Source of the DNA: a virus
Virus record (IMG/VR): IMGVR_UViG_3300001676_000018
Coordinates: 1-36,169 of that record
Direction: 5' to 3' (one strand)
Length of the DNA stretch: 36,169 bases
Each line of letters starts with the position of its first letter. Position 1 is the first letter of the stretch. This document shows, piece after piece, positions 2,523 through 15,107 of the stretch. A program made the position numbers and the translations under genes. The notes beneath the pieces were generated by a model that was not told where the DNA came from, did no database searches, and worked only from the letters and a program-made list of their open reading frames with translations.

Positions 2523-2553
2523 GGGAGGGGCTGAATACCAATCGGCCTCTCCC
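2523..2553. terminator. Hairpin between convergent gene blocks, probable bidirectional terminator
   Basis: Bases 2523-2533 pair with 2543-2553 as an 11-bp GC-rich stem with two G-T wobbles and a 9-base loop. It lies where the plus-strand recombination genes meet the 3' end of the minus-strand late operon, touching the stop codon of the last late gene. Neither side has a long run of T (TACTTTG on the plus side), so termination may be partial or Rho-assisted. Bases 2433-2522 hold no gene that I can support. Confidence 0.55.
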
Positions 2554-3272
2554 TACTTTGCACCGAAGGCACGCTGTCGTTCCTTCTCCCTGAACCTCTG
2601 AATCCCCCGCAGTTGTGAGCGGTCGATCTCTTCCTGCTGCTTCATTAGTTCTTTTAGTTTTGCACTACCAATAGGCCATGCGTTTTTGTTCACCTGATTA
2701 GGGTCGTCGTCTGCTCCCTCTACAGGGGTTCGTCTATTGACATGGGTTTTGAATATATCCATGTGTGCAGTGCTGGTCCCTGCCCTCCTTGCCTCGTCTA
2801 CTCTGTTCTGTATAGCCGCTGCTGTCCAGCCGAACTGTGTTCTATACAGTGCGGTGCGAGGATCTTTGAACGCTGGGTGTGGCACGTCCATTGACCCTGG
2901 TGCCTTCTCACCCATTATGTTTCCTGGTCGTGGGCTTACGCTACCGCCCTCGTAGTGCCTTGTCGCAGCAAGCAACTTCGCAACGAATGCAAGGTCATTA
3001 GGCCTAACGTTCCCTTTAGTGTTAGTTGGGGTGCGTGCATCGAAGAGGGCGTGCAAGAATGCCGTCTGCTCCCGCTTCCCCTCTAAGGGTGTGCCCTTCA
3101 TGACTATGTTATGCGGGCGAATATCCTTATGAGCCTCGGACAGGGCAGGCTTCTTGTTAGCACCTATCCACCCTATGTAGTTGAGTGACGCAAGTATGTT
3201 GCGGTGGGCTGGCTCTTTCTTACGCTCAGGCACCCACTTGTAAGGCTTCCACTTAGCCACCTGCTTAGCCAT
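2553..3272 (-). CDS. Unknown protein, last gene of late operon
   Basis: This 239-residue basic protein starts at ATG 3272, whose A is shared with the TGA stop of the gene before it (TGATG). GAGGT stands about 8 bases upstream. A GTG directly before the ATG would add one residue. No enzyme motif is visible. The N-terminus is rich in Lys, Trp and Tyr (KWKPYKWVPERKK), the middle has conserved-looking polar stretches (KGNVRPNDLAFVAKLLAATR), and the C-terminus is a charged helix (EEIDRSQLRGIQRFREKE). It lies downstream of the lysis-like genes and is followed directly by the convergent hairpin. It could be a virion-associated or late accessory protein; this is only inferred from position. Confidence 0.75.
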   Translation of the reverse strand: MAKQVAKWKPYKWVPERKKEPAHRNILASLNYIGWIGANKKPALSEAHKDIRPHNIVMKGTPLEGKREQTAFLHALFDARTPTNTKGNVRPNDLAFVAKLLAATRHYEGGSVSPRPGNIMGEKAPGSMDVPHPAFKDPRTALYRTQFGWTAAAIQNRVDEARRAGTSTAHMDIFKTHVNRRTPVEGADDDPNQVNKNAWPIGSAKLKELMKQQEEIDRSQLRGIQRFREKERQRAFGAK

Positions 3273-4246
3273 CACTTCTTACCTCTGCCCCAAGGTGTTG
3301 AGCCATACACCACGGCTCCAGCCAAGCCATACTTCGCGATCTTCTTCGCCCTTGTCTTTGCCTTCTGCTTCTTGAAACTGCGTAGCCTTTCGGACAACTG
3401 CAACGGCTTGGTAGTTTTCTTTACTGGCTTACCAAACTGGATCAGCGTTACTTCGGAGGGATCCCCGCCATGCTTGGCCATTCCCCTACGAAACTCAGCA
3501 GTATGTTTGATGGCTGAGGGTGCTGGTACTTCAGCGATCTCCGCCTGGGCAGCGGGTCGATATATTGGTCGCTTCTGTTTCTCTAATGCACGCAGTAATA
3601 TATATTCCATGTCTTCAAACGGGTTCGCTATTATCCTGATCTGGTCTCGCTTCTCGCCCGCCATTGGTCGCATGTATTTTAACTCCTCCGAGGTAGGTCG
3701 AAGTAGTTTACCATGGCTATCGGCTAGTTTCCGGGTAATATCCATGCGGACAGCACGACTTGGTGCTACTTTTCCGGTAATCTTCGCTGACTCATTGAAG
3801 AAATGGCGTAGTGAAACCGCCTGATCATGCGCTTCTCCAGCGAATACTTCCCAAGTCCTTGGGTGTACTGGGTAGGGCACCTTGGCCTGATTGAGCCAGT
3901 CCTTAACGTTTTCATCCACATAGTCTGCGTAGGTGGTTTCCCTGGAGGGCTTCCCTTTGAACCATTTATTCCCTGACTCAGGTGGCATTCTATTCCCTGT
4001 CGCAGAACTGCCCAGGCGTGCGATGGGAATGTCGTCGGCCATTAGGTTCATGGGGAGTAGTTGGGGGTCATAGGTCACGCTTACTGCTGGGACTGTAGTC
4101 TTAGTCTTAGGTGTACGAGGTGTCTTCGCACCGTACGTACTCTTGAGGCTAGCCTTGGGGGTGTCAATGCCACGTAGTTTCCTTGAGGCCCTACCCCTGC
4201 CCAGCCCAAAGCCAAGCCCTCTTAGTAACTTGCCAAACACAGACAT
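3272..4246 (-). CDS. Unknown highly basic late protein
   Basis: The product has 324 residues and starts at ATG 4246, which overlaps the upstream stop as TAATG. A longer in-frame form from 4276 would run back into the previous gene and is rejected. The protein is strongly basic at both ends: GFGLGRGRASRKLRG near the N-terminus and SFKKQKAKTRAKKIAKYG near the C-terminus, followed by a short hydrophobic patch (LAGAVVYG). The middle is more mixed (DYVDENVKDWLNQAKVPYP and HDQAVSLRHFFNE). The charge fits a nucleic-acid- or envelope-binding late protein, but no family is recognised. Coupling on both sides places it firmly in the late operon. Confidence 0.77.
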   Translation of the reverse strand: MSVFGKLLRGLGFGLGRGRASRKLRGIDTPKASLKSTYGAKTPRTPKTKTTVPAVSVTYDPQLLPMNLMADDIPIARLGSSATGNRMPPESGNKWFKGKPSRETTYADYVDENVKDWLNQAKVPYPVHPRTWEVFAGEAHDQAVSLRHFFNESAKITGKVAPSRAVRMDITRKLADSHGKLLRPTSEELKYMRPMAGEKRDQIRIIANPFEDMEYILLRALEKQKRPIYRPAAQAEIAEVPAPSAIKHTAEFRRGMAKHGGDPSEVTLIQFGKPVKKTTKPLQLSERLRSFKKQKAKTRAKKIAKYGLAGAVVYGSTPWGRGKK

Positions 4247-4557
4247 TACTTCTTCTTTCTGTTCCTGAACACCCATGTGCCAAACACAGCAGTGAAGCCA
4301 GCAGCCAGCGCAGTGAAGATTGTGTTCCAGGGCTCCGGTAGCAGGGGTGCTAGACGTTCGACCACCTCATGGCCGACAGCCACCATGTCACCGCCCGGTC
4401 CCTCCACGACCACCGTCTCGACGCCTGTGGGCACACCGTCAGCGTCAAGCACGACCTCTCTGATCACCTCACAACCTGACGTGGCTACAATAAAGCATAC
4501 GCCCAGGATCATGACCCAGAACAAAACTACTCCCGACAACTTTTTATCAAACTTCAT
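4246..4557 (-). CDS. Candidate unimolecular spanin (lipoprotein with C-terminal anchor)
   Basis: This 103-residue envelope protein has hydrophobic segments at both ends. The N-terminus is lipoprotein-signal-like: KFDKK, then a hydrophobic run (residues 9-25) ending ATSGC with Cys29. The lipobox is imperfect because Thr stands at -3. About 50 strand-prone residues follow (EVVLDADGVPTGVETVVVE). Then comes a second hydrophobic helix at about 79-97 (IFTALAAGFTAVFGTWVF) closed by RNRKKK. Unimolecular spanins, known from phage T1 gp11, have this layout and fuse inner and outer membranes at lysis. ATG 4557 shares a base with the upstream TGA, and AAGGAG stands 6 bases before it. It directly follows a holin-like gene. 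The role is inferred from topology and position, and a minor membrane protein is the alternative. Confidence 0.6.
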   Translation of the reverse strand: MKFDKKLSGVVLFWVMILGVCFIVATSGCEVIREVVLDADGVPTGVETVVVEGPGGDMVAVGHEVVERLAPLLPEPWNTIFTALAAGFTAVFGTWVFRNRKKK

Positions 4558-4772
4558 CACTTACTCCTTAGTTCTTGCTGCATGGATTCCACTCGCTCCT
4601 CTAGCCTAGCCAGCGCCTTAGCCACTTGGCATATAGCCTGACTGTTCTCCCTCATCGCTCTAGTCATTGACTCGTTATACTTGGCAAGGTGCCTCAGGAA
4701 AGCCAGTACTACTACCAGTATAGCCACTCCCCATGGTGCCTGCAAGATCAGTTCTTTCAGTATTTCTTCCAT
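4557..4772 (-). CDS. Small single-helix membrane protein, holin-like (BhlA-type layout)
   Basis: This 71-residue protein has an N-terminal amphipathic start (MEEILKELI), one strongly hydrophobic helix at about 10-26 (QAPWGVAILVVVLAFL) and a long charged tail with coiled-coil character (ALARLEERVESMQQELRSK). Small holins of the BhlA/UviB type and related phage membrane proteins share this arrangement, including the Q-x-P-W/F-x-V/A start of the helix. ATG 4772 has GGAG 6 bases upstream and begins 3 bases after the stop of the giant internal virion protein. Its neighbour, the candidate spanin, starts on its stop codon. A holin role is likely but unproven; an anti-holin or other membrane protein remains possible. 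Confidence 0.65.
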   Translation of the reverse strand: MEEILKELILQAPWGVAILVVVLAFLRHLAKYNESMTRAMRENSQAICQVAKALARLEERVESMQQELRSK

Positions 4773-4775
4773 GGT

Positions 4776-7700
4776 CTACTCCATTATGCTAGTTTTAGGG
4801 TCGTATCCAGTGAAGTCTACGTCCATTAGCAGTGGAGCAAGGCGGTGTTCTATGTGCTTGAACTGCCTCCAGTAGAAGTCGGCTGGTGTCCAGTTCTTCT
4901 GCCAAGGAGACCGCTGGTTGTATGCCCTACCCGCCGCCGCCATCGAAAGTCCAGTGTCTACTAGTAGTGTGAAGGGTAGCACGTTTTGCCATGGCACGAA
5001 ACGCCTGCCTCGCGATAAGTGCTTGGCATTTAAGGGCTTACCGCCGACCATTATTTGTAGTGCCTCGTTACCCATCCACCACGCCTCGTGCAACTTGCCC
5101 ACAGTGGGCCCCATCATTTGCTCAACCCACCCCTTCTGCTGCGACCTGCTCAACCCACCACCAGTGTTGGATCCAAGGAGGTTCTGGGTAAGTATGTCGC
5201 TAGGCGGGTACGTGGTGCTCTCTAGCATGCCCCATGGCTCGCTGAGTATGGCCATGGCACCGCTTCTATCCACTGCGTTCATGGCAAGTTTGGCCACGTT
5301 TGCGTAGTACTGTTCTTTCGTGCTGCCCCTCGCTCTGCCGCCTGTGCCTGATATATGGGGGAAGGATTCACGCCCACGCATGGCGTCCTTGCCAGCAGTG
5401 ACCATGGTGCCTGCCACCATTAACCCAACGGCTGTTCCGTAAGCAGTCAAGTCGAACGAGCCCATCCTCTGCGCTAGTGGGATGAGCAACTGCTCCGTTG
5501 CGACAATGAAGAACTTCTTGAACTGTAGCATGACACGTGCGAAGATAGTTCTGTCCGCCATGCCCGGCACGTTGCCTGCTCCAGGTGTTATGATACCCAT
5601 TTCTCCCGCTGTAGTTACAGAGGCGGTAACCCTGGCACGCAGTTCCATGGCCCTACGTTGTGACACCCCGACAGTTGATGACCAGTCCTCCGCCTTCGTT
5701 TGGTAGAACTTACCTCCCATGTCATTCTCGTAGACACTACCGAACTTCTTGTTCAGTTTGTCTATGTCAAGCAGGTCTCTTTCGTTCAGGCGCATGTGCG
5801 AAATGAATCGCTTGTCGCCCCGGCGGTTAGCCCAGAACCTATCAATGCTCTTGCCCTTTGCTAGGTCATCTGCGATACGTGATATACGGCTGGCAGATGC
5901 AAGGGAGTTGACTGACTTCCAGAAACCATTCCACCTGTTGAGTAAGATCAGGTTGGTGGTTGCATTTGCGACGGCTTCGCTTGTCTGCTCTAACCTATCA
6001 GTCACTGAGTAGGATCGCTTCCCTGCCATCTCAGCCTTGACGCTTGCGATGGAGCCAGCCCTACCCTGCATGTTTGTACCGACTAACTCTTGAGCATATA
6101 TTAGGTCTTGAACCCAGTACTTCTCATCTGGTGGTAGGGTCTTGATCATCCTCTTTATCTTATACAGGCCATACTTGTAGGTGGCAGCAAGGAATGGCCC
6201 TGGGCCAGCGACAAAGATTCCCATGGCGATGTCGGGTAGGCTAGAGAATGTCACGCCACCCATGTTGGTTGCGAAGTTGTAGTTGCGAACCAAGTTAACA
6301 GAAGCAGACCATAGCCTATTCTCTGGCACTCGTTGCCACGTGTTGAATATCCTCTGGTGTACTATGTCCAGGTCTGATATGGCCCGGTCCTTAACCTTGG
6401 CGTGCTTCTTTGACCTGCCCGGATCTGCTTTAATGTTCTCGATAAACTCTCGCAGCAGCACTGCCCTGTGTGGTAGTTGACTTATGCTTACCTGCCAGGC
6501 ATGTGTACGCTCTTCGATTACACGGTCAGTCACCTTAGCCATGCGCCAAGCAATGATTTCCGCGTGAATACTCCTGTTGGAAGACACGGCAGCAAGGATA
6601 GTAGAGGAAGGTGGCTCGCTGCTTGACCATTCTAACACCCGGTCGGGGCGTATCTTACCCTCAGGCTCAATCGAACCGGGCACCTCACCCTTGGACACCC
6701 TCTTGCTAAGTTTAGTGTAATCCTTGTATGCCTTGTCGTATGCCACAGACAACGCTTCCTTGTCGTCATCGCCAGCCTCACGCACAGCCTTACGTGCCGA
6801 GCGCAATGCTTCCGTCACCTTCGTAACTTTGGCCAGCATCTTTTGTAGTTCTTCTTTACCGTAAGAACTATTCATACGCACGTCCATGCGTAGACGTTGG
6901 GTCTCTGTTAGTATGGACAGTTCGTCCTCTATCTCGATCACACGCAGGTGATTCTTGACGAGGTCCTCGTCTGTCATCTTGTCGGACACCTCACGGAGCG
7001 ACCGCTCTATCCGGTGGGCTTCCTCCAGTAACTTGTTTGTCTCCCTCTGGAACTGAATGGTGTCCCCGTGAGCAAGGCGGTGGAAAGCAACCACCTTGAG
7101 GCCAAGCCCTTGGTAGAAGTTGTGCCTCTGTGCGTCTGAGGATATACGAAGGAACCTTTCAACATACTTGTCCGCTATGAGCAGTGACCGTTGCATTGTG
7201 GGGTCGGTATGAACCAAGGAAAGGACGTCACCCTGTGATGGGGTTGACCACCCCTTCCACACAGCCTCGGCCTTGTCACTGTCCCACGATAGGTTATCTA
7301 ACTCTGTCTGCTTGGCATTGATAGCCTCGTCGGCCTCAAAGATAAATCTCTTTCGTTCCGTTATGCTTGACTCTGCGTCTGATTCGCCTATGAACTTCTT
7401 CATCTCTTCAATGAACGCCAACTCGTCTTTCTTCTTCACCTCTAGGCCCGGCAACCTGGACGTATCCGCTGCCATCTCGGCAATGCTTTCTATCCTATGC
7501 TCACGGACACTCATAGCGGCCATGTCACCCGGTTGAATCATAAATGTGTCAGAGAATCGGCTTGCTGCCTCGTCCCCAGACTCACTTATGTCAGACATCA
7601 CCTCCTTTGCTTCCTTCAAGGTTCGGAAACTCTTGGTATACTTAACACCTGAATCCCTTAAGTCACGCCCGGTGGTCTCTATTCCCTTGTGGATGTAGTA

Positions 7701-9824
7701 CAGGTGCCAGCCATCCTCAAGGCCCTCAGTGCCACGCACCTCAGGGTGAACGTCCCCGCCCCTACGCACCACAACCACAGTTCCACCGATATAGTTCTTA
7801 ACTGTCCTGGCTGATCGGTACGACTCCCCGAAGAGAACCTTCATGCTCCGCTCGGACTCCTTGTGAGTTGGTAGTTCTACGGAAGCATGAGACACGCTCT
7901 CTAGTTCCGTCTGTTCTTTTATCTGGCGATCTATCTCACGTATTCTCCTACGAGAGGACCTCAGTTCTTCCTTGGCCTCAACCACCGCAGCAAGAGAACC
8001 CTCCGACCCACGCAAGTGTTCCTGCGCCTCCACCTTTGCCTTCTGTAGGCGTTCGAGTGACTCCCTCAGTTCAGGGCGCTGCTTGTCAGCGAGGTCCTCC
8101 CATCCCTCCTTGAGCAACTTCAAGAACTCGCTACGGTGTCGAGATACCGCCTCTCTGTCAATGATCCTGTGAACGAAGTTCTCATTATGCGTCTTTACGT
8201 AGAACAACTTGCGATCAGTAACCTCCTTGCGTGTCATCATGCCAGCGAGTACTACCATGTCGTCGAACAACTTCTGCTCTTCGCCAAACAGTGCGCGTGC
8301 TTCCTTGATAGCCTTTATAGCAGCAGGGTTCAGTTGCTTTCCGTCGCTCGTCTTGAATGGCTGGAACCCGCTACCGTCTGCGCCCATTATTGTTAGGTTG
8401 GGATCGAAGTTGTCGTCGAGTCTTCGGTATGCCATCTCCACTGCTATGTCGAAGTGGTCGTAGCCTGAGTCGATGACGGGTAGGTCTCTCCTGAAGTTCG
8501 CACCCTCCGCCTTACCCTTGTCGTAGATTCCTCTTTGCGCCCTGCGTATACCCACTGCGTGTAGTTCGACCATGGCCTTAAGGCGTTCAAGACTCGTACC
8601 ATGTGTGGAACCTGTCTTCACAAGGGCGGTGTCCGTGAACACGTCGATAATACGGTTGGCTTCTTTACTCTTGCTAACAGCCATGCGCATGTTAGGGGTG
8701 AAGAAGAATAACTTATTAAAGAAGAAGTTGCCCCATGAACCACGCCGTAGCCCAATCAACTCGACGATGTTCTTGTTCACGCCGTCAAGTATCTGGTTCC
8801 ATGCGTCATCGCCAACAAGGTCCTCGTCCAGGGATCTACCCGCACGAAGGGATTCGATCAGCGACTCTACCTTACCCTGCAATGCTGGTCGGGCTTTTAT
8901 GTTGTCCAGCATAACTGCTCGGGCACTGTCTAACGCCTCCGGCACTGTGTCCTCACCGAAGCGACGACGAACGGCACTCCTGTACCCAACGGACATCGTC
9001 GCAGCGGCCCCACTCAGCACTGCACCAAAGGCTGTCTCAAATATTATGTTGGTGTAAACTTCCTTCGGTGTCCTGGTGCCAATGCCACGGTAAAGTATGG
9101 CCTCACGGACAGCAGAGGTAGCGCCCGCACCAGCAGTGGCAGCAAAGGAGGCGGCTAGTATCGTGTAGAGTTTACTGGCACCAGCAGCAGCACGGGCTCG
9201 GGTGAGTACGCCCCTTGTTATGAAGAAGTCTGCGTATATCTGCTCGTCCCATGGTGCACTTGTTAAGCCCGCAAGTAACTGCCACCCTATGCCGGACTTG
9301 TGTAGTGTATCCCTGTCCGCTTGGCTCTGCTCGTACATACGGATAAGGGCCGCACGACCCTCCTCTGTGAGTTCACTGTTCAGGCGATCTATGAACCTTT
9401 CGGCACGCTCCTCGTCTGAGAACTTGGGCAGGGTACCGCTGTAGTCGCCTTCAGTGGGTGTGTAACCCATGACGTCTGTACGGAATGTCTGCATCCCCTC
9501 CTCTGCCCAGTCATCAAGGTATGTTTTTACACCTTCGGCAAGGTGTTCGTCGGAACCCGCAGTCATGTATGACAGGAAGTCCCTGCCCCACTCGTACACA
9601 CCAGTGACAACTGGCTCATTACCAGTGAGCAGCAAGTCAGGATCTTTGAAGGCTCGTGATACTGTGCCACCTATGCCAAGGTATTCACGGTTGTGCGCAC
9701 CAAGGGTTGACCAAAATGACGGGCCTTCCTTGGCTGCTTCGATCATTTGCATCCTTGCACCAGGAGGTATGGCATATCCTGGTCGCCTACTATAGATACC
9801 CGGCTTGGTTATTCCATCATTCAC
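4776..9824 (-). CDS. Giant internal virion (ejection) protein, gp16-like
   Basis: The product has 1682 residues. GTG 9824 overlaps the previous stop by 8 bases and has GAGGG upstream. Its position after gp14- and gp15-like genes and its size match the largest ejected core protein of podoviruses. Visible parts are a hydrophobic alanine-rich region at about 225-300 (ILAASFAATAGAGATSAV), long charged coiled-coil-prone regions (about 590-660 and 860-1080), and a C-terminal region with ARVMLQFKKFFIVATEQLL and a following hydrophobic stretch (YGTAVGLMVAGTMVTAG) like those in gp16-type proteins. I see no lytic transglycosylase signature. Such proteins leave the capsid during infection and help form the DNA channel across the envelope. 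The family assignment rests on context and overall pattern. Confidence 0.75.
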   Translation of the reverse strand: MNDGITKPGIYSRRPGYAIPPGARMQMIEAAKEGPSFWSTLGAHNREYLGIGGTVSRAFKDPDLLLTGNEPVVTGVYEWGRDFLSYMTAGSDEHLAEGVKTYLDDWAEEGMQTFRTDVMGYTPTEGDYSGTLPKFSDEERAERFIDRLNSELTEEGRAALIRMYEQSQADRDTLHKSGIGWQLLAGLTSAPWDEQIYADFFITRGVLTRARAAAGASKLYTILAASFAATAGAGATSAVREAILYRGIGTRTPKEVYTNIIFETAFGAVLSGAAATMSVGYRSAVRRRFGEDTVPEALDSARAVMLDNIKARPALQGKVESLIESLRAGRSLDEDLVGDDAWNQILDGVNKNIVELIGLRRGSWGNFFFNKLFFFTPNMRMAVSKSKEANRIIDVFTDTALVKTGSTHGTSLERLKAMVELHAVGIRRAQRGIYDKGKAEGANFRRDLPVIDSGYDHFDIAVEMAYRRLDDNFDPNLTIMGADGSGFQPFKTSDGKQLNPAAIKAIKEARALFGEEQKLFDDMVVLAGMMTRKEVTDRKLFYVKTHNENFVHRIIDREAVSRHRSEFLKLLKEGWEDLADKQRPELRESLERLQKAKVEAQEHLRGSEGSLAAVVEAKEELRSSRRRIREIDRQIKEQTELESVSHASVELPTHKESERSMKVLFGESYRSARTVKNYIGGTVVVVRRGGDVHPEVRGTEGLEDGWHLYYIHKGIETTGRDLRDSGVKYTKSFRTLKEAKEVMSDISESGDEAASRFSDTFMIQPGDMAAMSVREHRIESIAEMAADTSRLPGLEVKKKDELAFIEEMKKFIGESDAESSITERKRFIFEADEAINAKQTELDNLSWDSDKAEAVWKGWSTPSQGDVLSLVHTDPTMQRSLLIADKYVERFLRISSDAQRHNFYQGLGLKVVAFHRLAHGDTIQFQRETNKLLEEAHRIERSLREVSDKMTDEDLVKNHLRVIEIEDELSILTETQRLRMDVRMNSSYGKEELQKMLAKVTKVTEALRSARKAVREAGDDDKEALSVAYDKAYKDYTKLSKRVSKGEVPGSIEPEGKIRPDRVLEWSSSEPPSSTILAAVSSNRSIHAEIIAWRMAKVTDRVIEERTHAWQVSISQLPHRAVLLREFIENIKADPGRSKKHAKVKDRAISDLDIVHQRIFNTWQRVPENRLWSASVNLVRNYNFATNMGGVTFSSLPDIAMGIFVAGPGPFLAATYKYGLYKIKRMIKTLPPDEKYWVQDLIYAQELVGTNMQGRAGSIASVKAEMAGKRSYSVTDRLEQTSEAVANATTNLILLNRWNGFWKSVNSLASASRISRIADDLAKGKSIDRFWANRRGDKRFISHMRLNERDLLDIDKLNKKFGSVYENDMGGKFYQTKAEDWSSTVGVSQRRAMELRARVTASVTTAGEMGIITPGAGNVPGMADRTIFARVMLQFKKFFIVATEQLLIPLAQRMGSFDLTAYGTAVGLMVAGTMVTAGKDAMRGRESFPHISGTGGRARGSTKEQYYANVAKLAMNAVDRSGAMAILSEPWGMLESTTYPPSDILTQNLLGSNTGGGLSRSQQKGWVEQMMGPTVGKLHEAWWMGNEALQIMVGGKPLNAKHLSRGRRFVPWQNVLPFTLLVDTGLSMAAAGRAYNQRSPWQKNWTPADFYWRQFKHIEHRLAPLLMDVDFTGYDPKTSIME

Positions 9825-12800
9825 TGATCGCCCTCAACTTCTGCTCAACGATCCTGGCATGGCGCTCCCAGTCAGCCCCGTATATTCCTGCGGAAGGAAG
9901 CCGATCAACCTGCTCCAGGTAGTATCCATAGGTCTCGATCTTGCGGGCCATACGATCCAGTATCAGGTTCTGATTCTCAAACCGTTTGTTCTTCAGATAC
10001 CATCGCTGTTCGTTTATTTCACCTGCGGTTCGTCGAAGGTTATTCCTACCCATGTCGTCTACGATCCTAATCTGCATTTCTGTCAAGTCCTCAAGGAGTT
10101 TTGGTAGATTCAGCGGGGCAGACATTTGCTTATTCCAGTCAGCCACGCCTTGCGTCATGGAGATCGCTGTAGTACCCGCTGCCTCAATCACCTCTTCTCC
10201 GGTAAGTCCTCTACCGTCCCCCTCGCCCAGATCTACGGTCCAGACCTTCTGTCCTCCCACCTTCCTACGCGTAGACCCTTGTACTTTCGTGAACGGCAGT
10301 GAAGGAATACCTTGTTGATCCAAGAAGTTCCAAAGGTTATCTTCATTGGCCATGATTGAGAGTTCATATCTAAGAACTCGATCAGTAAAGACACCCATCT
10401 CTTCCGTAGTGTACGGCCTTATCCTATACTCTTGCACCTCTCCAGGTTTGTCGGGGCCGGTAAGCGAGGGGTTTATGTACGCTACCCTTCCCACGTTACG
10501 TGTGTCGATGCCCATAGTATCCCTCATGTACTCACGTGTTGTCTTTCCATAATCACCCGCCCTACTGCGTATCGTCCTGGGTAGACGGGAAGCGAATAGC
10601 CCATACTCAGTTGTGTACTCATTAAGGGTCTTCGGCACCAAGCCCTCGTCCCTCAAGTGGATCATGAACTCCGGGGTGTCATGACTTAACTCAATCTCAT
10701 ACCCATACGTCATGCTTGTGGTGTCAATGTATATGCCTGTTGCGTTAAAGAAACTCTCTCCGGTTAATATGTCCTCCGCTGTAGTGGGGAAGAAGTCCGA
10801 AAGCCTCTTGTTCCTTTGCGGTTCTCCCGAACGGGCAGAGGGGGCACCTATGCTGATCCACGACAGTAGGTCTATGGTTAGTTTCTGACGGTCACTGAGC
10901 CCCTCAATGTCTACGGAGGGTAGGGATTCCTTGATGTTTGGATTCGACCTAGCCCAGTCGAGGTAGTCCTTTACTGTGTCAGCGAACTGCTCTACCATAC
11001 CTTCCGGCATGTTCTTATTAGAGGCTAGGGCGTGATCGTACCAGTCGTCGGCAAACTCAAGCGGGTCACCCCCAGGTAGTAGTTGATTAAACTCGTGCCA
11101 GCCACTAAGGATTGCGTCAGCGTCGAGCGCATCAAGGGGCTGGTCTCTTGTAAAGTCTTGCACCGTATTTATTAGACGGTGGGCTGAGTGCGGTATATCG
11201 TCCTGGTCTAGTAGGAACTTCCTTGCAGCCTCAACATCTTGTGGTGAGTATTTTAGATTGTCCTGGTCTGCGCTCACAGTTTCCATGAAGTCTATAAGAC
11301 CACCCATGTCGGAGTTGGCTACTAGTGTGTGACCTGCTTCGGGATTGAAGTGACCTGTACCAGCCCGGTTACTCCAGAACACGTCACCCCTTACCTGCAT
11401 CCCGGGTATCTCACCTTCCTTCTCATACTTTGGATCAAGGACATTGAGAAACGAGTCGTTAAGATTCAGGTATCTATCTTGGAAGTCTCCTCCGAACCCG
11501 CTCTCCGCTATAAGTCCCTGTAGGGCCCTGGACTCTGACGGGTCGTCTAACTTCACAAGCCTGCCCTGTCTCTCAAGTGCACGCATTCCAGTATAGGACG
11601 GTTGTAGGGCCTCTTTGAAGTACGCTCTATTGTCTAAGTCCAAGAATGAAAACGCTGTGTTGTAGTCCCTTATTATTCCTATATCCACCGCTGTTTGAAC
11701 TATGCTGTTTAAGTGGTTATCATCCTTATCTACCCATGCTGGGAGTTGATCAGCGGCACGGCCACGAGTAGCCAAGCCCTGTAAGAATGCTCCACCTTTT
11801 TGCCCAGCCAACTCACCCACCGACAAGCCAAAGGCTAGTTCGTACTCACCAAAAAGATTAGTGGCGGACCTAGCAACAGACCTAACCATCCCAGCAGCGC
11901 CTTTTCCTGTTGACAGTTCACCGAACATACCCATCGACCACTGTCCTACATAGTGGAGTGCTGTGCCTATGTACCCGGCATTATCTGGTGCAGGGGTGTA
12001 GTTGAATGCCGACCCTTCGACCATGCCAGCAGACAGTTCAAAGAAGCCGTATTTGTTGATCTTGTTAAAAGCACCAGCCACGCCTGACCTAATATGCGAC
12101 TCACGTATTGCTTCTATCGACTCATCAGTAGATAATCCGAACGCCAACATGTCACCGGCAAAGATGACAAGCCCCGCTGCCCCACCTGTCAACGTCTTCA
12201 ACTTCCGTCCGAGCCTTGTAAGTGCGGTCCTGGCACCCTTATCAAACTCCGCCCGCTTCAAGGCCTGCCTGATACCCTTACCTCCTCCGTATTCCTTAAG
12301 CAATCTTTTTAGTTCTTTTCTGTACCGGGCCTTCTGGTCTTTTGTAGCAGAGGAGAACTGGTCTATTCTTTTCCGGTCACCCGCTGGAACTTTCAGCACG
12401 TCATACAAGTTGTCAAGTGTCTTCTGTGACTGCCCGCTGTAGTGCGTAGCGAACTGACCACCGGAAGTTCTCGCCCCCCTGATAGGCTCTGGTTGGAACT
12501 GATTCCATAGGTGGTCTACCATGTCTGCCCCACGGGGCCCTATCAGACTTGTTACTCTCTTCTCTGCCGCCTTGTTCAACCTGTACATGGCGTACGACGA
12601 CGACCCGCCCGCTACCACAACGTCTGCTGCATCCGTGAAGATCATGGCATGGCCTGCGTCTATGCCCTCTTGGAACTCTGCGTCTGCCGCTGCCTGCTCC
12701 GGTGTGAGTTGCCCTATCGGCTCACCACCTTGCTCTAAACGCAGCCCTCGTTCTACTGCATCATGAATGTGACCTTCTTCAGGCATATCCAGTGGAGGTC

Positions 12801-14643
12801 GCTCCTGCTTCGTCTGCCCGAGTAGTGCTGTCAACTTCTCAAAGCCTATGTTTTTGACGTCAATGGGCAATGAAGACTCGCCTCTCTCCCCGCCCACTGC
12901 ACGCAACTCATAAACACTATCACCATGTACTTCGGTGACAGCAGCGAACACCTCTCCATCTCCTGTTGAACCGAAGACGGAATGTAGTTGCGCTTGAGTC
13001 ATGCGCCCGTTGACATTCAGTGGGTCAAGGTACCAATCCCCTCCACCCTTGGTTGCCATTATGCCCGAGTTCTTAATGCCGAGTTTTAGAGACGCTGAGA
13101 TCTCTTCCATGTTCTTTGAAGCGTCTATTCTTCCGAACAACTTACCGGACAATATCTGCCTATGAAGTTCCGCCCGCCTTCCAGGCGTTAGATCCCCAGT
13201 ATCAAGACCGACCTCCTCTAATAGTCCCAATAATGCTGCCTTAGCATTTGCGCCCTGCTTCACTTCGTCGGCGGAGTACGCACTATCTGCTGTAGTCCCG
13301 TTCCACCCAGCCTTCCAAGCGTCAGTCAGTTCGACCGCTGAACCACCGCCACCGCCAGTGCTACCACCACCTGGGCCACCCCATACCGATGCATTGCCAC
13401 CTGTGTCAATCTCCATTATTACGGGCGTCTGAGTAAGCCTGTTCCAAGCGTCAGCATTTGATTGCAAAGAGAACCAATGGCCTACCCTTGACCACTCAGT
13501 GCGAGAGATCCAGAATATCCCGTCATCGCTGTACTTGCTGATCACGTCCAGAAGAGCCTCAGCAGACGTGTCCAGTGAAACTTGTGGCAACTTAATGAAG
13601 CCTGCTAGTTCGCTAGCGCCGGGTACGTACCCATGGGATGACTCCAAGGCAATCCTGGCTTCGGTAATAGGGGTGCCGTCTTCAATCAGGTCTACTACAT
13701 ACTGTCCGTACGAACTATTCTTCAGGCTAGAGATCGCTTCTGTCTTTATCCCTAACTTCTCTAGTTCCCCCTCGTAGTCTTGCGTATCAGCACTGGGGTT
13801 TCCAGGATCTACTAGGTCGGATAGTACGCCCACGATCTGCGCTTGCCCGGCTGTCGTGGATGCGTGACTAGTGAAGTTCTGCGCTGCTGAACGTCTCGCA
13901 AGGTCTATGTCGATGGCGTTCGCACCACTTGCTTCCCACTGCTTTAATAGTAACTCTAGTTGGGCGGGATTCTCGACCAGTTCTTGCGGGTTCCTTATCA
14001 GTTGTGTTACTTCTTGTCCAACCGCTTCGGGTAACCATGCCCTTGCATTAGACTTACCCGCTTCTGTCTGCAAGGAAGACATCCACTCCGTGTGACCCGT
14101 AAACAACTTATTAACTAAGTCAGTCCTGGTGTCGTTCTCTGCAATGTCAACGTTTACTCCACGTTGCAGCCTTGCATTGTCGAACGCTATCTTGGCTGTC
14201 TCTTCCCAGTCGGTCTTGATGGCGGGGGATAGGTCAGTTCGTGCCTGTTCCGCTGCTTTCTTTGCAGCGCCCTCAAACCACTTGTACTCTTCCGTTTTCG
14301 GGAACAACGCATCCGCTGGTTTTTGGAACTTCTCTGGATCAAAGACAACGCCATCCGCATACGAACCGTTACCCAGGCCTGCCTCAGTACCCGCGGCGGT
14401 GGCGTCGTCAGTGACTGTGTTGCTTAATGTGGACAACCCAGCCTTCACACGGGTCTCAACTTCGTTTATCTTCTCATTGTTCGCACTATCTATTAAACCG
14501 GCTGCTAGTTTGGTTGCGGATATGATAGAGTTAAATGTTTTCTGGTGATCCTCATAATCCTCCTGAAGGTCTTCTAGTTTGGACGTATCTTGCTGTAGTT
14601 TGCGGGGACGTGGGCCAGTGCCTGAAATGTTTATAACTACCAT
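9817..14643 (-). CDS. Giant internal virion protein, gp15-like
   Basis: This 1608-residue protein starts at ATG 14643, sharing one base with the stop of the gp14-like gene (TAATG). The N-terminal quarter is helical and alanine-rich (FNSIISATKLAAGLIDSANN; AAKKAAEQARTD). Near residues 425-440 is a pure Gly/Ser linker (GGPGGGSTGGGGGS) that appears to join two separately folded halves. Further on are basic helical segments (QALKRAEFDKGARTALTRLG) and a hydrophobic patch (TGGAAGLVIFAGDMLAFG). No catalytic motif was found. Position between the gp14- and gp16-like genes suggests the middle ejection protein of the core. It is about twice the length of T7 gp15. The role is inferred from order. Confidence 0.72.
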   Translation of the reverse strand: MVVINISGTGPRPRKLQQDTSKLEDLQEDYEDHQKTFNSIISATKLAAGLIDSANNEKINEVETRVKAGLSTLSNTVTDDATAAGTEAGLGNGSYADGVVFDPEKFQKPADALFPKTEEYKWFEGAAKKAAEQARTDLSPAIKTDWEETAKIAFDNARLQRGVNVDIAENDTRTDLVNKLFTGHTEWMSSLQTEAGKSNARAWLPEAVGQEVTQLIRNPQELVENPAQLELLLKQWEASGANAIDIDLARRSAAQNFTSHASTTAGQAQIVGVLSDLVDPGNPSADTQDYEGELEKLGIKTEAISSLKNSSYGQYVVDLIEDGTPITEARIALESSHGYVPGASELAGFIKLPQVSLDTSAEALLDVISKYSDDGIFWISRTEWSRVGHWFSLQSNADAWNRLTQTPVIMEIDTGGNASVWGGPGGGSTGGGGGSAVELTDAWKAGWNGTTADSAYSADEVKQGANAKAALLGLLEEVGLDTGDLTPGRRAELHRQILSGKLFGRIDASKNMEEISASLKLGIKNSGIMATKGGGDWYLDPLNVNGRMTQAQLHSVFGSTGDGEVFAAVTEVHGDSVYELRAVGGERGESSLPIDVKNIGFEKLTALLGQTKQERPPLDMPEEGHIHDAVERGLRLEQGGEPIGQLTPEQAAADAEFQEGIDAGHAMIFTDAADVVVAGGSSSYAMYRLNKAAEKRVTSLIGPRGADMVDHLWNQFQPEPIRGARTSGGQFATHYSGQSQKTLDNLYDVLKVPAGDRKRIDQFSSATKDQKARYRKELKRLLKEYGGGKGIRQALKRAEFDKGARTALTRLGRKLKTLTGGAAGLVIFAGDMLAFGLSTDESIEAIRESHIRSGVAGAFNKINKYGFFELSAGMVEGSAFNYTPAPDNAGYIGTALHYVGQWSMGMFGELSTGKGAAGMVRSVARSATNLFGEYELAFGLSVGELAGQKGGAFLQGLATRGRAADQLPAWVDKDDNHLNSIVQTAVDIGIIRDYNTAFSFLDLDNRAYFKEALQPSYTGMRALERQGRLVKLDDPSESRALQGLIAESGFGGDFQDRYLNLNDSFLNVLDPKYEKEGEIPGMQVRGDVFWSNRAGTGHFNPEAGHTLVANSDMGGLIDFMETVSADQDNLKYSPQDVEAARKFLLDQDDIPHSAHRLINTVQDFTRDQPLDALDADAILSGWHEFNQLLPGGDPLEFADDWYDHALASNKNMPEGMVEQFADTVKDYLDWARSNPNIKESLPSVDIEGLSDRQKLTIDLLSWISIGAPSARSGEPQRNKRLSDFFPTTAEDILTGESFFNATGIYIDTTSMTYGYEIELSHDTPEFMIHLRDEGLVPKTLNEYTTEYGLFASRLPRTIRSRAGDYGKTTREYMRDTMGIDTRNVGRVAYINPSLTGPDKPGEVQEYRIRPYTTEEMGVFTDRVLRYELSIMANEDNLWNFLDQQGIPSLPFTKVQGSTRRKVGGQKVWTVDLGEGDGRGLTGEEVIEAAGTTAISMTQGVADWNKQMSAPLNLPKLLEDLTEMQIRIVDDMGRNNLRRTAGEINEQRWYLKNKRFENQNLILDRMARKIETYGYYLEQVDRLPSAGIYGADWERHARIVEQKLRAISE

Positions 14644-15107
14644 TAGACCACCCGAGTACTACTAGTATCGCCCCGGTAATGTCTACCTGGGTTTGTAAGT
14701 GTCATGTGCCTCCTTGAGTCCTTCCACCAGTGGTGCTTCTTCGGCAACCCCGCAAGTGTCGCTTCTTGCTGAAGGACGGACTCGATCATTATGTCGGACT
14801 CTACTGCCTGCGCTGAACCAGACCTCATGGACACACCTGACGCACCGTACAGGGCTCTCTGGCTTGCTGCCTGGAACCTTGACTGGCGACCTATGTCCAA
14901 GGCATGGAAGACAAGTTGCCCCGCCTTCAGGCGGTCCTTCTCCCGGCGAATCCTCTTCTTCTTCTTCCTTGCTTGGGAGCCCGATAGTCCACCAAAGAGG
15001 CCGCCAAGGATAGCGCCTACGGCTGTTCCAATGCCGGGTAAAATCGCAGTGCCTAAGGTCGCTCCTGCCGTTGCCCCAGATACTGCGGAGTCAAGTTCTT
15101 CAGCCAT
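14643..15107 (-). CDS. Internal virion protein with glycine zipper, gp14-like
   Basis: This 154-residue protein begins with a long glycine-zipper hydrophobic region at residues 10-43 (ATAGATLGTAILPGIGTAVG, then AILGGLFGGLSG). A basic patch (ARKKKKRIRREKDR) follows, and then the segment QRALYGASGVSMRSGSAQAV, which resembles the Y-x-A-S-G-V ... G-S/T-P motif common in gp14-type proteins. These proteins are ejected first and insert in the outer membrane to begin the DNA channel. ATG 15107 overlaps the nozzle gene's stop as TAATG. The order nozzle, gp14, gp15, gp16 is the standard podovirus order and supports the call. Confidence 0.83.
   Translation of the reverse strand: MAEELDSAVSGATAGATLGTAILPGIGTAVGAILGGLFGGLSGSQARKKKKRIRREKDRLKAGQLVFHALDIGRQSRFQAASQRALYGASGVSMRSGSAQAVESDIMIESVLQQEATLAGLPKKHHWWKDSRRHMTLTNPGRHYRGDTSSTRVV

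Follow-up and report, generated by a model that had tools for sequence, protein, structure and literature searches.

Our results point to a 103-aa lipoprotein-like product with a C-terminal membrane helix as a u-spanin-like lysis protein, acting in outer-membrane disruption and belonging to a new sequence family, a reading to which we assign a probability of roughly 60%. Its gene (4246–4557, minus strand, from the ATG) lies in a virus record of 36,169 bases, probably a fragment; this whole stretch of DNA was the object of the analysis and is referred to here as the window. The minus strand of the window corresponds to a podovirus late operon carrying terminase, portal, head, tail and internal virion protein genes, and the last four genes of this operon encode, in order, a 71-aa one-helix protein (4557–4772, minus strand), the 103-aa protein, a 324-aa basic protein without family match (3272–4246, minus strand) and, as the final gene, a 240-aa protein (2553–3275, minus strand). 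The first two genes overlap via TGATG, the start of the 324-aa gene overlaps the lipoprotein stop (TAATG), and Shine-Dalgarno-like motifs are located 6 nt before the ATG of both the 71-aa gene (GGAG, 4779–4782, minus strand) and the lipoprotein gene (AAGGAG, 4564–4569, minus strand). An earlier note on this DNA had described the first pair as a two-gene lysis cassette with a candidate unimolecular spanin, and the layout and coordinates that it gave were right. The best of the matches listed for the window portal, with 28% identity, belong to Pelagibacter phages, HTVC028P among them, so that no close phage appears to be present in the GenBank phage collection.

The 103-aa protein starts with a signal-peptide-like segment (residues 1–28; 4474–4557), modelled by AlphaFold as a helix over residues 5–26 and followed, after Thr-Ser-Gly, by the presumed lipidation site Cys29 (4471–4473). 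Next come a 45-residue ectodomain from Cys29 to Leu73 (4339–4473), which includes the block VVVEGPGGDMV, a weakly hydrophobic, Gly/Ala-rich C-terminal helix running from PEPW to WVF (residues 74–97; 4267–4338), and the basic tail RNRKKK (4249–4266), expected to be cytoplasmic, all encoded on the minus strand; Cys29, the helix and the tail are present as previously claimed. A second AlphaFold helix spans residues 77–102, the mean pLDDT of the model being 60. Within the ectodomain, values fell below 50 at residues 30–38, 41–54 and 56–71 with no confident fold, and the model thus lends no support to a beta-rich ectodomain of the T1-family type. When the window was scanned for ORFs combining a signal, a lipobox-like Cys and a C-terminal hydrophobic stretch, this gene was the sole match, and such an ORF appeared in 0 of 20 dinucleotide shuffles; a looser scan added two spurious ORFs, both antisense to genes.

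A profile scan located the family at 16 loci in viral contigs (34 matching stretches); the scan with a single sequence had recovered 6 lipoprotein loci, and the later scan with 11 sequences recovered 15 of 36. Three loci were set aside as identical (100%) to the window protein (L001, L002 and L003), and L005 (the same as L004), L021 (the same as L020/L009) and L026 (a 48-residue fragment) were also left out, resulting in a family set of 11 distinct full sequences, window included. The carriers are marine phages known from metagenomes alone. No match to the lipoprotein was found in a search of 50,697 GenBank phages, nor was there any GenBank phage match for the 71-aa or the 240-aa protein, and none of the 353 stretches of GTDB genomes that fitted a pattern encodes a relative at the sensitivity of that search.

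All 11 members have, by sequence pattern, a hydrophobic segment closed by Gly-Cys and one or more Lys or Arg among the first seven residues, together with an ectodomain of equal length free of Cys, and a basic tail of net charge +3 to +5, and the distances from the Cys to PEPW (45 positions) and to WVF (66 positions) are constant throughout. Conversely, the part preceding the Cys differs among members both in its residues and in its length (12–32 residues), which fits a cleaved signal rather than a functional domain; the shortest, in L011 and L024, consist of a bare 12 residues ending in LAG. The lipobox consensus of published u-spanins is given as [LVI][ASTVI][GAS]C in PMC6139136, where deviations are reported and AWAC is shown to work. 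This consensus is matched in 6 of the 11 members, the remaining five deviating at position -3 (TSGC in the window, TAGC twice, TVGC and MSGC). Invariant columns amount to 23 of 45 in the ectodomain and 11 of 24 in the helix. Over a 70-codon core, dN was far below dS in every pair with a computable dS (window versus L008: dN 0.105, dS 1.21), and the lipoprotein gene is under purifying selection. A chance or spurious ORF is ruled out by the conservation, the dN/dS values and the shuffles.

The ectodomain is better conserved than portal and terminase when distant relatives are compared: the window and records G009 and G010 share 73% and 76% identity in the ectodomain, as compared to 51% and 40% in the portal and 53% and 40% in TerL. 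The pattern is reversed in the near relative G006, with 67% identity in the whole lipoprotein and 95% in the portal, and the window lipoprotein is nearer to that of G002 (77%) than to that of G006, which suggests, on sequence grounds, that the gene has been exchanged among these phages. An ectodomain that outconserves the portal is unlike the fast-diverging spanins. Together with a short fixed gap, a weak helix and an off-consensus lipobox, this strong conservation leaves some room for roles outside lysis or within a single membrane. The protein might instead be a phage lipoprotein that binds a conserved envelope component from the periplasm, whether to exclude superinfection, to mask a receptor or to protect the infected cell, its placement being fixed tightly by both anchors; the ectodomain identities cited above, as well as the invariance of the VVVEGPGGDMV block, which suggests a specific binding partner, speak in its favor. 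However, the gene sits late in the operon, after an internal virion protein gene and close to the operon end, a one-helix protein is its constant neighbor, and exclusion lipoproteins such as T5 Llp and HK022 Cor are not known to carry a C-terminal membrane helix. We regard this alternative as rather unlikely.

The u-spanin-like reading is best assessed against known systems. T1 gp11 and KP34 gp54 also are single-gene products with two anchors, an N-terminal lipoprotein signal, a C-terminal helix with a basic tail, and no ectodomain Cys, and Kongari et al. (2018; PMC6139136) count 58 of 58 u-spanins without a periplasmic Cys. They differ in their anchor gap (86–88 residues versus 50 in the present family), and T1 gp11 additionally in its adjoining endolysin gene and stronger membrane helix. 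Alignment with hhalign of the family against T1/KP34 covered 15 columns at the signal only, with a probability of 1.9%. The T1 gp11 family criterion appears as 40% over 40% of length in PMC6139136, and by sequence the 103-aa protein would stand outside that family. The earlier proposal of a u-spanin laid out like T1 gp11 is partly supported, the layout being conserved in 11/11. Similar in setting are the candidate gene assignments SIO1 gp22 and VpV262 ORFB, from marine podoviruses with matching layout and a late-module position; the Cys of ORFB is preceded as in the window (TSGC), and both phages appear among the u-spanins of Table 5 of PMC6139136. For cobaviruses such as SIO1, which are marine podoviruses, PMC6775973 describes a two-anchored spanin in the late module adjoining the internal virion proteins, and the SIO1 gene order agrees with this. 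The family showed no similarity to the SIO1 and VpV262 proteins (profile probability 1.7%), and nothing similar was found past the signal end in any of the four known or candidate u-spanins. More than 40% of spanin families are singletons (PMC6139136), which sets the strong conservation seen here apart from known spanins. In lambda, the presumed end result achieved by Rz/Rz1 would be equal, with two proteins there and one here.

In our reading, the 103-aa protein would undergo export, signal cleavage and lipidation at Cys29, the lipid directing it to the outer membrane, while the C-terminal helix would hold it in the inner membrane with its basic tail in the cytoplasm. Permeabilization of the inner membrane, for which the 71-aa one-helix protein may be responsible, and degradation of the peptidoglycan would come first; the 103-aa protein would then pull or fuse both membranes together. 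The anchor gap in the window protein is 45 residues if counted from Cys29 through Leu73, just ahead of PEPW, and 50 if counted from Cys29 to the point where the best-scoring 17-residue hydrophobic segment begins, which agrees with the approximately 50 residues estimated earlier. By the latter measure, the gap is 50 in all 11 members, 59 in SIO1, 86 in T1 and 88 in KP34, and about 79 in VpV262 from positions (Cys33, helix at 113); the suggestion that this protein is among the shortest thus holds against the four measured. Fully extended, 45–50 residues would reach at most approximately 15–18 nm, less if folded, which is about the width of the E. coli periplasm, and a bridge of this size is at the physical limit for spanning it.

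Given this limit, both anchors might instead reside in the inner membrane, the protein being a holin, a pinholin partner or a wall-synthesis inhibitor that forms no bridge. Besides the fixed 45–50-residue ectodomain, this is favored by a Gly/Ala-rich helix that is weakly hydrophobic (C-terminal hydropathy 1.5–2.0 in 11/11, versus 2.3–3.2 in SIO1, KP34 and T1), and by the fact that no hydrolase was recognized among the scanned proteins of related records. Nevertheless, the residue right after the Cys is Glu in 8 and Thr in 3 of the 11 members, never the Asp that, by the classical rule, keeps lipoproteins in the inner membrane of E. coli, and we consider a same-membrane placement improbable.

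The 71-aa protein combines an acidic N-terminus, one predicted transmembrane helix (approximately residues 12–26), a basic flank and a coiled-coil-like C-terminal half; with a net charge of -2 before the helix and +3 after it, an N-out/C-in topology is predicted. Its earlier description as holin-like draws on its size, its single helix and a weak match to a PHROG holin family (E 0.0016, residues 21–60), with no match to any Pfam holin family; we retain it as a holin candidate. Weak Rz-like PHROG matches were also obtained (phrog_1403, E 0.049; phrog_89, E 0.058). These matches, the coiled-coil-like half and the overlap of the two genes would fit a variant two-component spanin, with the 71-aa protein as i-spanin and the lipoprotein as an o-spanin bearing an extra C-terminal helix. 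Against it, the predicted topology is opposite to the N-in/C-out of an i-spanin, the ectodomain lacks Cys, and the helix is kept in 11/11 although an o-spanin needs none. Furthermore, at least one gene intervenes between the two in L004/L005, L011, L018, L023 and L024. This arrangement is, in our judgment, improbable. The presence of a one-helix plus coiled-coil protein upstream of the lipoprotein, either directly or a few genes off, speaks for the u-spanin-like reading. The counterpart of the 71-aa protein in G010 is 28% identical, and in G009 its place is taken by an unrelated 102-aa protein of similar type. In L001 (170–289) and L003 (6565–6684), where the lipoprotein is identical to that of the window, the reading frame of the one-helix protein breaks off after residue 39, owing either to a true mutation or to an assembly error.

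A separate Rz/Rz1 pair, which the earlier note had named as evidence that would count against a u-spanin, was sought via its lipoprotein half and not found: six-frame lipoprotein scans returned no credible Rz1-like gene in the window, G006, G005, G009, G010 or G004, and the initial 20 kb of G003 likewise yielded none. The few other lipobox matches in related records lacked a C-terminal helix and ran antisense to genes or in a different frame from them, and the only ORF combining lipoprotein signal and C-terminal helix in the window and those five records was the 103-aa family gene. A u-spanin layout is supported by the conservation of both anchors and of the exact ectodomain length in 11/11, and by the fact that neither the window nor the five records offered a second plausible lipoprotein. 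In the pelagiphages HTVC010P (L058) and HTVC028P (L059), no coding-strand ORF of the lipoprotein-plus-helix type was detected, with one spurious antisense match in the former; these two phages may use a different lysis route.

The earlier remark that no endolysin gene adjoins the pair is confirmed in so far as hydrolase profiles match no neighboring product, a point that counts against the lysis reading. The search covered 26 window proteins against PHROGs and 16 against Pfam, and 111 selected proteins (50 + 61) from six related records against Pfam, 50 of which were also compared to PHROGs (25 of the 70 families listed), with full tables for ten G006 proteins. Among the scanned proteins of the window and the related records, none gave a match to a lysozyme, amidase or peptidoglycan-peptidase model. 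The evidence for absence is weak: the records are probably fragmentary, the scans took in less than half of the 252 ORFs listed for the related records (some counted twice at overlaps) and few of the short ones, and novel hydrolases would be missed. Endolysins are recognized in most cobaviruses (PMC6775973).

Several candidates were rejected. The 154-aa protein (14643–15107) gave PHROG matches labeled "endolysin" and "tail associated lysin" that cover its glycine-zipper stretch; this protein also shows a weak likeness to the internal virion family phrog_418. The 1682-aa protein matched phrog_342 ("internal virion protein with endolysin domain") at the C-terminal end of the profile, and the lysozyme domain of that family presumably lies elsewhere. 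A scan for the motif E-x8-[DC]-x4/5-T produced scattered, unconvincing matches, a PDB sequence search with three large proteins yielded nothing relevant, and the PDB matches of profile A7 (designed repeat proteins and fusion constructs) were read as composition. The nearest endolysin candidate is, speculatively, the 240-aa protein, by a faint motif without tool support: an EG...GNI...GE stretch that we take to resemble lysozyme-like proteins. It is confined to the window's own group and G009 (31% identity), the G009 copy is devoid of the PGNI part, and AlphaFold gave a mean pLDDT of 34 over four sequences. Lysis might also dispense with a conventional endolysin. The lipoprotein, held by its two anchors and bearing the invariant VVVEGPGGDMV block in its fixed-length ectodomain, would then itself block wall synthesis or wall-membrane coupling, with the one-helix protein acting as trigger, rather than join two membranes once a hydrolase has done its work; we deem this scheme quite improbable.

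If confirmed, the u-spanin-like reading would describe a u-spanin ectodomain little over half the size of that of T1 gp11 and of strictly fixed length, a tether that could hardly be a folded beta rod across a full-width periplasm, which would limit the mechanism of one-protein spanins. It would also indicate hosts with an outer membrane, and the strong conservation in otherwise differing phages would make the gene a useful marker.

The lipoprotein gene adjoins that of the 1682-aa internal virion protein homologue and genes for small basic proteins, as might be the case for a virion component or an ejected protein made alongside the internal virion proteins; a conserved export signal with Gly-Cys would be unexpected there, and we find this highly improbable. 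One to three very basic proteins surround the lipoprotein (window, 3272–4246; L008, 10557–12364; L009, 7918–9782; L011, 6919–8230). Several of them have in common an N-terminal GLGRGRASRKLRG-like motif and a basic C-terminal motif, and by sequence they look like tandem paralogues. Elsewhere in the window, positions 9817–14643 encode a 1608-aa protein without convincing family match, whose relatives among nine records compared are confined to G006 and G008.
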